Of a DNA stretch of 64,000 bases, positions 4,038 through 46,034 are shown in pieces. The stretch covers positions 124,001 to 188,000 of the forward strand of contig NZ_JAFIWC010000005.1 of assembly GCF_017163755.1 (NCBI RefSeq). Reading direction: 5' to 3'. The position numbers were made by a program, and so were the translations under genes. Positions within the stretch are counted from its first letter, which is position 1. Every line of letters begins with the position of its first letter. Origin of the DNA: Xanthomonas sp. GTDB taxonomy: Bacteria > Pseudomonadota > Gammaproteobacteria > Xanthomonadales > Xanthomonadaceae. Below the pieces are notes generated by a model. It had not been told where the DNA came from, searched no databases, and saw nothing but the letters and a program-made list of their open reading frames with translations.

Positions 4038-4745
4038 TCAGACCTTCCCCTTCAACGACCGGTAGTCGCGCGGCGTCATCCCCACCGTGGCCTTGAACTG
4101 GCGCGCGAACGCGCTCTGGTCGGCGAAGCCGCAGGCCTGGCCGATGCTGGCGATGCTGTCGTCGCCGTGCAGCTGGCGCATCGCCGCTTCGATGCGCATC
4201 TTGGTCAGCAATTGCTGCGGGGTCAGCTGGAACACGCGGCGGAAATGCCGCTCCAGTTGCGCCACCGACAGTTCCGCCAGGTCGGCCAGGGTCTGCACGC
4301 GCAGGTTGTCGCCGTAGTGCGACTGCATGTGCTCCATCGCGCGGCTGATGCGTTCGTACGCCGAGTGGCGGCTGTCGGGCTGGCCCAGGTCGCGGGAAAT
4401 GCCGACCACGCCGATCACCTCGTCGTGTTCGCACAGCGGGCGCTTGAAGGTCAGGCACCAGCCCGGGGTGCGGTTCGGGAACAGGTGCACTTCCAGCTGG
4501 TTCTCGATCATCTCCCCGCACAGCACGCGCCGGTCCTGCATCAGGTAGCTGCCGCCCAGCGGCAGCGGGAACACCTCCAGCGCCGACTTGCCGATCAGGT
4601 CGGCGCGGTACTTCTTGCCCAGGCGCCGCACCAGGGTCAGGTTGACGTGGGTGTAGCGGCCGTCGCGGTCCTTGACGAAGAACACCACGTCCGGCAGCGC
4701 ATCGAACAGCGTCTGCATTTCCAGCGCCGAAATCAAAGTATCCAT
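4038..4745 (-). CDS. AraC-family regulator with a PAS domain, likely controlling hydroxyproline use
   Basis: A 235-residue transcription factor. Residues about 10-125 form a PAS-type sensor (LFDALPDVVFFVKDRDGRY, then GVVGISRDL), a domain that usually binds a small ligand or cofactor. Residues about 135-235 are the AraC double helix-turn-helix (LADLAELSVAQLERHFRRVF and SIGQACGFADQSAFARQFKA, ending TPRDYRSLKG). It is divergent from the hydroxyproline operon, with 173 bases between start codons, the usual place for a local activator. AraC-type regulators control hydroxyproline operons in pseudomonads, so I infer that it responds to hydroxyproline or an intermediate; the ligand is not visible. 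Confidence 0.85.
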   Translation of the reverse strand: MDTLISALEMQTLFDALPDVVFFVKDRDGRYTHVNLTLVRRLGKKYRADLIGKSALEVFPLPLGGSYLMQDRRVLCGEMIENQLEVHLFPNRTPGWCLTFKRPLCEHDEVIGVVGISRDLGQPDSRHSAYERISRAMEHMQSHYGDNLRVQTLADLAELSVAQLERHFRRVFQLTPQQLLTKMRIEAAMRQLHGDDSIASIGQACGFADQSAFARQFKATVGMTPRDYRSLKGKV

Positions 4746-4918
4746 CTACACTCACCGAGCCGGTTGTAGGGTGCAGGCGCCGCGCGCACGGCGCCTTGCA
4801 TGACCCGATCCTAGCCTATGTCGGAGGTCTCCACGCATCCGGCCTTTATGCAAACTTCCGCATTTATGACAGACAAAGCCTGCTAGCCGGCGGCAGGGCG
4901 GAATGTGAGCATGGATCT
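4746..4918. promoter_or_regulatory. Divergent control region of the hydroxyproline operon
   Basis: This 173-base gap separates the AraC/PAS gene from the epimerase gene and must hold both promoters. Around 4844-4870 it contains TTTATGC, eight bases, then GCATTTATG, a short inverted repeat that could be an operator. TTCCGCATT at 4856-4864 resembles the first half of the shared element found further on, but the second half is absent. No confident -35/-10 pair was assigned. Confidence 0.45.
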
Positions 4919-43614: not shown

Positions 43615-43634
43615 GCCGCGCCGGCGATCGGGCG

Positions 43635-46034
43635 ATGGCGTCGGCGGCGGCCGGCGCCGACGCGGAATCCGGCGCCGCGACGCACGCGCCGTCGCTGTCG
43701 CGGCGGCGCTTCCTGGCCTGGAGCGCGCTGGCGGTCGCGGCGGGGCTGCTGCGCTTCCCGGCCGACGCGCAGGCCAGCGTCGCCGGACGCGTGCGGCCGC
43801 TGCCGCTGGCGTCGGTGCGGCTGCGCCCGTCGATGTTCCTGGATTCGCTGCAGACCAACCGCGGCTACCTGCTGCGCCTGCAGGCCGACCGCCTGCTGCA
43901 CAACTTCCGGCTCTACGCCGGGCTGGAGCCCAAGGCGCCGGTGTACGGCGGCTGGGAGGCCGACACCATCGCCGGGCACACGCTCGGCCACTACCTGAGC
44001 GCGCTGGCGCTGCTGCACGCGCAGACCGGCGACGGCGCCTGCCTGCGCCGCGCGAACTACATCGTCGCCGAGCTGGCGCAATGCCAGCAGCGCGCCGGCG
44101 ACGGCTACGTGGCCGGATTCACCCGCAAGAACGACGCCGGGCAGATCGAGAGCGGCCGCGCGGTGTTCGACGAAGTGGCCCGCGGCGACATCCGCCCGCT
44201 GCCGTTCTACCTCAACGGCAGCTGGGCGCCGCTGTACACCTGGCACAAGCTGTTCGCCGGGCTGCTCGACGTGCACCAGCACTGCGCGCAGCCGCAGGCG
44301 CTGCAGGTGGCGCTGGGCCTGGGCGGCTACCTGGACGCGGTGTTCGCGCGGCTCAGCGACGCGCAGCTGCAGCAGGTGCTCAGCTGCGAGTTCGGCGGGC
44401 TCAACGAATCGTTCGTGGAACTGCACGCGCGCACCGGCGAGGAACGCTGGCTGTGGCTGGCGCGGCGCCTGCACCACCATGCGGTGATCGATCCGCTGGT
44501 CGCCCAGCGCGACGAACTGGCGCACCAGCACTCCAACACCAACATCCCCAAGCTGATCGGCCTGGCCCGCGAGTTCGAGGTCGGCGGCGACCCGGCCGCG
44601 GCCGCGGCGTCGCGCTTCTTCTGGGAGACGGTGGTCGCGCACCACACCTACAGCATCGGCGGCAACGGCGACCGCGAGTATTTCCAGCAGCCGGACAGCA
44701 TCTCGCGCTTCATCACCGAGCAGACCTGCGAGCACTGCGCCAGCTACAACATGCTCAAGCTGACCCGGCACCTGTACCAGTGGACGCCGCAGGCGCGCTA
44801 CTTCGACTACTACGAACGCACGCTGCTCAACCACGTGATGGCGCAGCAGCACCCGCGGACCGGCATGTTCACCTACATGACGCCGCTGCTCGCCTGCGAG
44901 GCGCGCGCGTATTCCAAGCCGTTCGACGATTTCTGGTGCTGCGTCGGCACCGGCATGGAAGCGCACGCGCAGTTCGGCGACTCGATCTACTGGCACGACG
45001 ACGAAAGCCTGTACGTGAACCTGTACATCGCGTCCAGCGCGGCCTGCGATGCGCTGGGGCTGGGCGTGCAACTGGACACCACCTTGCCGCTGCAGGGCCA
45101 GGCCACGTTGACGCTGACGCGCGCGAGCGATCCGCGCGAGCGGACCATCGCGTTGCGCATCCCCGGCTGGGCCGACGGTTTCGGCGTGCGCGTCAACGGC
45201 GCGCCGGTCGCGGCCGATGCCGAGCAGGGCTATGTGCGGCTGCGGCGTAGCTGGCGCCCGGGCGACACGGTGCAGCTGACGCTGCCGATGGCGCTGCGGC
45301 TGGAGCCGACCGGCGACGATCCGCAACTGGTATCGGTGCTGCATGGCCCGCTGGTGCTGGGCGCCGATCTCGGCGCGGCCGATGCGCCGTGGGACGGGCG
45401 CGAGCCGGCGCTGGTGGCCGATGGCGCGCTGCTGCAGGCGTTCCGCGCGCTGCCGCAGCCGGGCGAATATGTGTTCAGCGGCGCCGACGGCAGCGCGCCG
45501 CTGCGGCTGGCACCGTTCCATGGCCTGCACGACCGGCGCAGCGCGGTGTACTTCGCCAGCGCCGATCCGGCGGCGTGGCAGCGGCTGCAGCAACAGCGTG
45601 CGCAGGCCGCGGCGGCGGAGCAGGCATGGCAGGCGCAGGCGCTGGACGCGGTGGCGCTGGGCGACGCGGCCTCGGAAAAGGCGCACGGCCTGCGCAGCGA
45701 CCAGTCCTACGACCTCAGCTACCGGCGCCGCAAGGGCCGCGACGCGCGCACTGGCGGCTTCATCGAGTTCGACCTGCGCAACGCGGCGCAGGCGCAGGTG
45801 CTGCGCCTGCGCTACTGGGGCGACGAAACCCGGCGCCGCTTCCGGATCCTGGCCGACGGCGAACGGGTGGCCGACGAACGCCTGGACGGCAACCGCGGCC
45901 TGGACTTCGTCGACGTCGACTATCCGTTGCCGCCATCGCTGGCCGGACGCGACACGCTGCGGGTGAGGATCGAGCCGGAGAAGGGCTACTCGGCCGGTCC
46001 GGCCTTCGGCTGCTGGTTGCTGCGCGCGGGCTAG
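43635..46034 (+). CDS. GH127/GH146-type beta-L-arabinofuranosidase, Tat-exported (second of two)
   Basis: A 799-residue paralogue of the enzyme at 37433, with the same layout: twin-arginine signal (SLSRRRFLAWSALAVAAGLL), helical barrel and two C-terminal beta domains. The active-site set is intact: Glu348 in NGDREYF, Glu366 and Cys368 in TCEHCASYNML, Cys435 and Cys436 in FWCCVGTGMEAH. The ATG at 43635 is used; a TTG at 43611 overlapping the receptor stop (TTGA) is an alternative that would add eight residues. Two copies may divide the work between linkages, for example the inner Hyp-linked and outer arabinose. Confidence 0.87.
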   Translation: MASAAAGADAESGAATHAPSLSRRRFLAWSALAVAAGLLRFPADAQASVAGRVRPLPLASVRLRPSMFLDSLQTNRGYLLRLQADRLLHNFRLYAGLEPKAPVYGGWEADTIAGHTLGHYLSALALLHAQTGDGACLRRANYIVAELAQCQQRAGDGYVAGFTRKNDAGQIESGRAVFDEVARGDIRPLPFYLNGSWAPLYTWHKLFAGLLDVHQHCAQPQALQVALGLGGYLDAVFARLSDAQLQQVLSCEFGGLNESFVELHARTGEERWLWLARRLHHHAVIDPLVAQRDELAHQHSNTNIPKLIGLAREFEVGGDPAAAAASRFFWETVVAHHTYSIGGNGDREYFQQPDSISRFITEQTCEHCASYNMLKLTRHLYQWTPQARYFDYYERTLLNHVMAQQHPRTGMFTYMTPLLACEARAYSKPFDDFWCCVGTGMEAHAQFGDSIYWHDDESLYVNLYIASSAACDALGLGVQLDTTLPLQGQATLTLTRASDPRERTIALRIPGWADGFGVRVNGAPVAADAEQGYVRLRRSWRPGDTVQLTLPMALRLEPTGDDPQLVSVLHGPLVLGADLGAADAPWDGREPALVADGALLQAFRALPQPGEYVFSGADGSAPLRLAPFHGLHDRRSAVYFASADPAAWQRLQQQRAQAAAAEQAWQAQALDAVALGDAASEKAHGLRSDQSYDLSYRRRKGRDARTGGFIEFDLRNAAQAQVLRLRYWGDETRRRFRILADGERVADERLDGNRGLDFVDVDYPLPPSLAGRDTLRVRIEPEKGYSAGPAFGCWLLRAG

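Follow-up and report, generated by a model that had tools for sequence, protein, structure and literature searches.

Why should a bacterium keep the enzymes that strip arabinose from hydroxyproline (Hyp) beside those that degrade Hyp itself? The question is raised by a stretch of 64,000 nucleotides from a Xanthomonas sp. genome of 5.07 Mb (NCBI RefSeq assembly GCF_017163755.1, contig NZ_JAFIWC010000005.1, positions 124,001 to 188,000, or G000:C55:124001-188000 in our numbering; 70.8% GC), the whole of which is called the window here. Genes were called from searches against Pfam, NCBIfam and PDB sequences together with a codon-usage profile. A previous reading of the letters alone (the sequence-only reading) had seen in positions 4038-46034 a single programme for the degradation of plant hydroxyproline-rich glycoproteins. 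All of the elements that it named are open frames inside this range, whose end at 46034 is correct, as a VgrG-like gene begins at 46228, and domain matches confirm a full gene set for the conversion of Hyp to 2-oxoglutarate with its AraC/PAS regulator, the specific roles being assigned from the operon. Two genes were missing from its list, encoding an APC-family amino-acid permease (~14885..16456, + strand; PF13520, 160.1 bits) and an exported protein that we designate P0001 (20087..22465, + strand).

We interpret the region as one locus, and probably one regulon, that serves the utilisation of hydroxyproline-rich glycoproteins of the extensin type, and give this reading of the sequence data a probability of about 0.77. 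The genes themselves, their conserved linkage and a conserved motif are shown below, and it is the linkage, together with the sharing of an operator by both halves, that supports the idea of a single programme. From left to right, the locus comprises the regulator gene (- strand) and, on the + strand, the Hyp genes and those for an M24 prolidase, a DUF885 protein, the APC permease, a dipeptidyl peptidase IV (DPP IV)-type peptidase (S9a) and P0001. These are followed, also on the + strand, by TonB-dependent receptor 1 (TBDR1), the glycosidases GH121 and GH43, a second DPP IV-type peptidase (S9b), TBDR2, GH146a, TBDR3 and GH146b. Intergenic gaps measure -8 to +4 bases from the epimerase gene through the prolidase gene, -7, -4 and +17 bases along TBDR1-GH121-GH43-S9b, and 20 bases between TBDR3 and GH146b.

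Linkage of P0001 and GH121 to the hydroxyproline operon

Of 297 family genomes, from 54 genera, 32 (in five genera) have GH121, and all 32 also hold P0001 and the Hyp epimerase, which overall is present in 72/297; in 28 genomes GH121 and the epimerase share one contig, ~19-33 kb apart. P0001 itself occurs in 41 of the 297 family genomes (7/54 genera), always with the epimerase and in 36/41 on the same contig, at a distance of 13.4-27.3 kb. A draw across the order detected P0001 in 43 of 397 genomes (11/98 genera) and supplied 16 further P0001 genomes, one from the same family and 15 from another, and in each of these the epimerase lies on the contig that bears P0001, 8.7-15.8 kb away. Wherever P0001 occurs, the Hyp operon is represented too: the epimerase accompanies it in 57/57 genomes, on the same contig in 52 (8.7-27.3 kb), on separate contigs in four and unlinked in one. 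The two halves are thus far from being unlinked in nearly all relatives, which, together with a response to unrelated inducers, the sequence-only reading had named as its refutation. In the four split cases (G030, G192, G207 and G219; G and L numbers are our handles for genomes and for stretches) the genes lie near contig ends, which is in line with an assembly break.

The named loci belong to Xanthomonas, Stenotrophomonas, Pseudoxanthomonas, Lysobacter, [Pseudomonas] boreopolis and the Rhodanobacteraceae Dyella, Luteibacter and Rhodanobacter, plus one unplaced metagenome-assembled genome. The 10 kb upstream of P0001 is present in 47 of 56 loci, and in 44 of them it contains genes of the Hyp operon or those for DUF885, APC or S9a; two of the exceptions (L105 and L109, from G174 and G001) have those genes further away, and the third is L135, from G012. 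In Xanthomonadaceae contexts reaching both flanks, the set lies mostly between ftsY and htpG (Xanthomonas, Stenotrophomonas, [P.] boreopolis), in some of them (G275, G295) reduced to regulator-Hyp operon-DUF885-APC-S9a-P0001-TBDR3-GH146b. In Pseudoxanthomonas G174 and G158 these flanks are out of view and the gene set stays together. For 11 Dyella, Luteibacter and Rhodanobacter genomes htpG falls outside the 22-kb locus, on another contig in eight and 155-520 kb off in three (if contig numbering is consistent between searches). The glycan half of G498 has the opposite orientation and remains next to the Hyp half.

P0001 is a predicted exported protein of the twin-arginine translocation (Tat) type, and its central domain has the six-hairpin (alpha/alpha)6 glycosidase fold; its residues E457, D459 and E650 are invariant. 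No Pfam glycosidase family matched any of 10 members tested at E values up to 5, NCBIfam returned only a sub-threshold TAT model, and the best PDB sequence matches were weak (E 0.4 and 0.5). Structural alignment gave no GH127 or GH121 chains among the 50 matches listed, which rules nothing out.

A shared operator motif

When the upstream regions of 33 epimerase genes were aligned (the window and 32 other contexts), 32 of them showed the block TTrTGCnnAnTTCCGCAT, some (for example G174, G212 and G065) with single-base differences; in G008 it was lost. A position weight matrix (PWM) was built from those 32 promoters, G008 being excluded because its site is not conserved and scored as a miss; the epimerase upstream regions with a site (33/34) are mostly this training set. 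Within the window the PWM reaches at least 8 bits at only five places, given here on the + strand, compared with an average of 0.6 hits per 64 kb in five mononucleotide shuffles: in the regulator/epimerase intergenic region (4846..4863, 31.9 bits, training set), upstream of P0001 (19991..20008, 16.0 bits), upstream of TBDR1 (22504..22521, 13.0 bits, matched on both strands at 22504/22506), weakly upstream of GH146a (37245..37262, 8.7 bits) and upstream of TBDR3 (40311..40328, 14.7 bits).

The same promoters carry the motif in relatives. Among distinct upstream regions, sites of at least 7 bits precede P0001 in 56/64, TBDR1 in 28/36, GH146a in 12/15 and TBDR3 in 22/37, and also the divergent regulator gene in 11/32; at 10 bits the corresponding counts for the first four are 54/64, 11/36, 6/15 and 17/37, with 0/71 for flanking genes. 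At 7 bits, too, no site was found in 71 upstream regions of the flanking MutY, FtsY, HtpG, CTPtr, GGT, MBL and GH9 genes (0/56 without CTPtr), and 100 column-permuted PWMs yielded 0-1.5% per gene. Sites are likewise missing before genes inside the operons (DAO 0/33, PyrRedox 0/39, DapA 0/45, ALDH 0/44, DUF885 0/47, GH121 0/36, GH43 0/36 and GH146b 0/18; M24 1/39), and were found in 1/14 upstream regions of S9b, 1/6 of TBDR2 and 0/7 of a small flagellar-like gene. The P0001 site lies mostly at -94 to -103 in Xanthomonadaceae and near -190 in 7 of 13 upstream regions from Dyella, Luteibacter and Rhodanobacter. Five more stretches from this last group were scanned (L151-L155, with L155 on the same contig as L146), and sites appeared before the epimerase in L153, L154 and L155, before P0001 in L154 and L155, and before GH127 in L152, L153 and L155; in the Rhodanobacter stretch L155 a site also precedes DUF885.

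The exact core TGCN4TTCCGCA occurs four times in the window against 0.19 expected, and none of 100 shuffles reached four. Genome-wide there are eight occurrences, including those four, versus 10 for the reversed pattern, and the remaining four score 2.2, 3.2, 4.0 and 10.8 bits. In other genomes, the share of exact cores that fall inside the locus is 4/12 (G111), 5/13 (G170), 4/14 (G006), 3/17 (G231), 3/17 (G064) and 3/11 (G265). The 10.8-bit match lies among frames that, read by eye, are methyltransferase-like, RNase H-like and DnaQ-like, and looks unrelated.

A PAS-AraC regulator gene is found near the epimerase gene in all 32 fetched contexts that contain the latter (34 were fetched; two, the stretch from G202 and the contig of G012 that bears P0001, hold no epimerase). 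The regulator of G008, in which the operator is lost, is the most diverged (39% identical). Because of this constant proximity, and because divergence of the regulator coincides with loss of the site, we infer that the PAS-AraC regulator is the protein that binds the operator.

Genes of the two halves

The regulator (4038..4745, - strand), transcribed divergently from the Hyp operon, has a PAS domain and an AraC-type helix-turn-helix, both above Pfam cut-offs (PF08448, 80.6 bits; PF12833, 83.8 bits). These are the domains of LhpR from Pseudomonas aeruginosa, which is described as an AraC-type protein that activates the lhp genes on binding L-Hyp (PMC6608401) and as carrying a PAS domain (PMC8694187). 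All other genes are on the + strand. The trans-4-hydroxyproline 2-epimerase (~4919..5860) scores 448.3 bits against PRK13970 (cut-off 442) and 411.2 bits against NF052296, under the cut-off of 450; it has Cys residues in MCGHGT and SPCGTGT contexts, and its closest solved structure (554 bits) is 4juu, from X. campestris (PMC4113996). It is followed by a DAO-type FAD subunit, the putative D-Hyp dehydrogenase (5857..6957; PF01266, 216.6 bits), a 2Fe-2S subunit (Fer2_4; 6957..7202, start approximate; PF13510, 80.7 bits), an FAD/NAD oxidoreductase subunit (Pyr_redox; 7195..8535; PF07992, 99.2 bits), a DHDPS-superfamily protein, the putative pyrroline-4-hydroxy-2-carboxylate deaminase (8540..9445; PF00701, 201.3 bits), and an aldehyde dehydrogenase, the putative 2-oxoglutarate semialdehyde dehydrogenase (9447..11042; PF00171, 144.2 bits), with the roles of the three putative enzymes read from the operon.

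The M24 prolidase (11039..12247; PF00557, 200.9 bits) matches structures entitled "Proline dipeptidase" (4r60, 5cik and 5cde) at 705-709 bits, and as no signal peptide was seen by eye it is taken as cytoplasmic. The DUF885 protein (~12486..14318; PF05960, 525.9 bits) has a signal-like N terminus and a HESSPGH motif. Many relatives hold a second DUF885 copy, 32-37% identical, in the place of the M24/DUF885 interval (12247-12486); the window, G170, G214 and G174 have a single one. S9a (16726..19053; PF00930, PF00326) also has a signal-like N terminus, and the solved chains closest to it are titled dipeptidyl (amino)peptidase IV.

In the glycan half, TBDR1 (22670..25636, start uncertain), TBDR2 (34135..37221) and TBDR3 (40645..43614, start uncertain) all match PF00593 and PF07715. 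The GH121 protein (~25630..29994, start approximate) is a HypBA2-like putative beta-L-arabinobiosidase that aligns over the catalytic region with 6m5a, a solved beta-L-arabinobiosidase (query 58-874; E 5.6e-230). Against the NCBIfam equivalog NF041578 it scores 1161.9 bits, below the cut-off of 3200, and is by this comparison homologous over most of its length and a different equivalog. In G202 (G202:C1:1394769-1396691) GH121 is in pieces with an internal stop, in agreement with the pseudogene reported for X. phaseoli (PMC6085000). The HypAA-like GH43, a putative alpha-L-arabinofuranosidase (29991..31577; PF04616, 119.6 bits, cut-off 32.2), overlaps GH121 in an ATGA, and S9b (31595..33934; PF00326, 149.5 bits; PF00930, 148.7 bits) has a signal-like N terminus. 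GH146a (37310..39835, start uncertain; PF07944, 416.8 bits) and GH146b (43635..46034; PF07944, 446.6 bits), the latter with a Tat-type signal, are putative beta-L-arabinofuranosidases of the GH127/146 type. For GH146b the best solved chain is 5opj, which we take to be a GH146 enzyme, at 427 bits versus 88 bits for the GH127 chain 4qjy.

Proposed route from glycoprotein to 2-oxoglutarate

The overlapping stop and start of GH121 and GH43, the GH146 gene nearby and the S9 gene beside GH43 repeat the set XCV2724-2729 of X. euvesicatoria, that is, the HypBA2-HypAA operon, HypBA1 and an adjacent prolyl oligopeptidase gene, as described by Nakamura et al. (2018, PMC6085000). The enzymes of X. euvesicatoria are reported there to convert Ara4-Hyp into arabinose and beta-arabinobiose (beta-Ara2), and one of them to release beta-Ara2 from Ara3-Hyp (PMC6085000). 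Whereas these sugar-removal steps have been demonstrated biochemically with Ara4-Hyp for the X. euvesicatoria proteins (PMC6085000), the window is known from its genes, from which we infer the substrate, the inducer, the binding factor and the order of steps. Outside the cell or in the periplasm, GH43 would take the alpha-1,3 arabinose off Ara4-Hyp, GH121 would release beta-Ara2 from Ara3-Hyp and GH146 would remove the last arabinose from Hyp, with P0001 presumably acting on the same glycopeptides. TonB receptors would import the fragments, the DPP IV-type peptidases and DUF885 would trim X-Pro/X-Hyp peptides, the APC permease would carry the products inward and the cytoplasmic prolidase would free Hyp, for conversion to 2-oxoglutarate by the epimerase, dehydrogenase, deaminase and aldehyde dehydrogenase. 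The LhpR-like regulator probably senses Hyp and binds the motif that heads both Hyp and glycan operons, so that the regulon is probably induced by Hyp.

The fate of the sugar points in the same direction. X. euvesicatoria is stated to be unable to use L-arabinose (PMC6085000), and AraA_N was found in none of the 41 genomes with P0001 and in 5 of 14 controls, a result that speaks to the AraA route and not to all arabinose use. Taken together, these observations suggest that the catabolic prize is the peptide and its Hyp. In G174 the locus has an MFS_2 transporter and a GH127 without a visible N-terminal signal peptide, relatives of which (61% and 75% identical, respectively) stand beside P0001 in [P.] boreopolis; such a pair is as expected for the uptake of beta-Ara2.

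Contrary evidence and alternative explanations

Several observations argue against one regulon, or limit what the counts can bear. Upstream regions of APC and S9a have sites in 1/50 and 0/43 cases. Of the 13 P0001 upstream regions from Dyella, Luteibacter and Rhodanobacter, five have no site and one more reaches 6.9 bits; L151 has no site anywhere and L152 none before P0001. None of the 21 exact cores of G174 lies in its locus, where P0001 is not preceded by a site either, and in [P.] boreopolis no site stands directly before P0001, an 18.8-bit site preceding the MFS2-GH127-P0001 set instead. The 7-bit threshold was chosen after an initial promoter table, the CTPtr control query is not a clean frame (it contains five internal stops and marks the gene start at 56054), and the genomes are related, so that linkage and motif counts are non-independent trials.

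That the natural substrate is not wall-bound extensin but arabinogalactan proteins or short plant peptides, either rich in Hyp or with arabinosylated Hyp (signal peptides, lectin fragments), seems unlikely to us. DPP IV-type exopeptidases, the prolidase and TonB receptors would suit short glycopeptides, and Pfam scans of the window frames recognised no backbone endoprotease in the locus, another point against extensin as such, so that in nature the locus may feed on glycopeptides that have already been cut. On the other hand, the cluster contains a Melibiase_2 alpha-galactosidase in 8 of the 41 genomes and also in Rhodanobacter L131 and L133 and in L153, an enzyme that would be expected for the Ser-O-alpha-Gal of extensin (PMC4908140, PMC5371791), and the same scanned frames gave no galactanase family among their Pfam matches. 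The window is without an alpha-galactosidase in the 809-base gap between GH146a and TBDR3, the gene having been lost or never present, and the only alpha-galactosidase match of its genome is 39% identical and on another contig. The earlier interpretation as an extensin utilisation locus is supported, and "complete" is too strong for a locus in which neither a backbone endoprotease nor an AraA arabinose route was found.

An origin of the arrangement in two independent loci, one for Hyp catabolism and one for the use of pectic or glycoprotein arabinosides, which would be neighbours only by common descent of one region, appears improbable. The repeated position between ftsY and htpG would be explained by it, and two findings that count against a single programme agree with it: 31 of the 72 epimerase-positive genomes are without P0001, which implies that Hyp catabolism also stands alone, and in Lysobacter M2-1 (G012) P0001 and GH146b lie apart from the epimerase. 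However, linkage survives both the loss of these flanks, in G174, G158, Dyella, Luteibacter and Rhodanobacter, and the rearrangement in G498, and the conserved motif is found in both halves but not at the flanking genes.

The preference for a nutritional locus also has to account for regulation by HrpX. A plant-inducible promoter (PIP) box, TTCGY-N15-TTCGY, is not found in the window, nor before GH121 in scanned members of the window's genus or in L097, L134, G017 and G159; contrary to a single Hyp-responsive regulon, one lies ~320-360 bases before GH121 in L111, L098, L100, L108, L115, L119, L120, L124, G231 and G254. Positions, ~330 bases from GH121, include L111:5760, L098:15863, L100:15866 and L115:15872, all in plant-pathogenic Xanthomonas. 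The hypBA2-AA genes of X. euvesicatoria are, moreover, reported to be HrpX-dependent and induced in plants (PMC6085000), so the GH121 block also answers to another signal in those Xanthomonas, and HrpX seems to have captured it in one lineage. Although the PIP boxes and the in-plant, HrpX-dependent expression would favour a plant-interaction module that loosens the wall or removes defence glycoproteins and serves nutrition only in second place, such a role is very improbable, as single and triple deletions are reported to have kept pathogenicity and nonhost responses (PMC6085000), the window has no PIP box, and the set is also found in Dyella, Luteibacter and Rhodanobacter. In G231 (L037-L039, joined position 3726) a full-consensus PIP match, TTCGC-N15-TTCGC, stands just downstream of the operator of the epimerase promoter; sister genomes have a near-match there, and it may be due to chance.

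Relation to known systems

Carbohydrate utilization loci containing TonB-dependent receptors (CUT loci) of Xanthomonas join TonB receptors with glycosidases for a plant glycan, and their food is the sugar. The same is described of the transporter and glycosidases of the hyp cluster of Bifidobacterium longum (PMC7263609). In contrast to both, AraA is absent here (41/41) and Hyp would be the catabolised end product. A closer parallel is offered by the HypR regulons predicted in Shewanella and other Alteromonadales, reported to include collagenases, proline peptidases and a TonB receptor (PMC5343134), which likewise join the degradation of Hyp-rich proteins to Hyp catabolism in one predicted regulon. 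As described, those regulons concern animal collagen, with no deglycosylation and a GntR-type regulator (PMC5343134), whereas the window has a plant-type glycoprotein as its likely target, glycosidases and a PAS-AraC regulator. By this analogy, the region combines a TonB/glycosidase locus with a regulon for amino-acid catabolism, paralleling on the plant side the HypR regulons linked to collagen as these are portrayed in that source.

The LhpR regulon comprises, to our knowledge, only Hyp catabolism and transport, with no glycosidases. In P. aeruginosa, as here, an AraC-type PAS regulator is reported to control the Hyp operon (PMC6608401, PMC8694187). The X. euvesicatoria study reports that the enzymes act on Hyp-arabinosides, found no disease role, leaves the physiological role open and asks why the genes exist (PMC6085000). 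"TonB" does not occur in its main text and "peptidase" occurs once, and the portions consulted make no mention of a linked Hyp operon, a prolidase, P0001 or a shared operator (PMC6085000). Among the titles and abstract openings of papers listed from an open literature library, arabinobiosidase or extensin deglycosylation is nowhere joined to Hyp catabolism.

The positional and operator tie to Hyp catabolism offers a direct and testable answer, namely that the hydroxyproline of the peptide is the prize, and the locus would explain why these bacteria keep sugar-removing enzymes. Three things are added to the sequence-only reading: P0001, the operator together with the LhpR-like regulator that probably acts on it, and an occurrence that reaches past the family. 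They provide for testing a protein family that has a glycosidase fold and no Pfam entry, as well as a DNA site and a regulator. Extensin-type glycoproteins are, in our judgement, a source of nutrients in plant walls and soil that has received little study. More tentatively, and with slightly less than even odds, we suggest that P0001 founds a new glycosidase family for Hyp-linked (or neighbouring Ser-linked) sugars and, jointly with this, that here, for the first time in a glycoprotein programme, freed Hyp would induce its own catabolism together with the enzymes of deglycosylation and import, in a single regulon retained by two families of Xanthomonadales.

Neighbouring regions

Directly before P0001, a gene at 19442-19750 encodes a protein of ~100 aa with weak, sub-threshold Flg_bb_rod and Flg_bbr_C matches, and this small flagellar-rod-like gene is kept in that position in many Xanthomonas loci. 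In G012 (L064/L065, joined 21537-33692), many copies of TTCGTTCAAGCCGA...CCGCTTCGY are found downstream of P0001-GH146b. Between GH146b and htpG, the region 46228-53116 of the window holds VgrG-like, Tox-PAAR-like and ankyrin-repeat genes with unassigned neighbours, and resembles a type VI spike/cargo island; in several relatives the first window gene to match after TBDR3 or GH146b is htpG.

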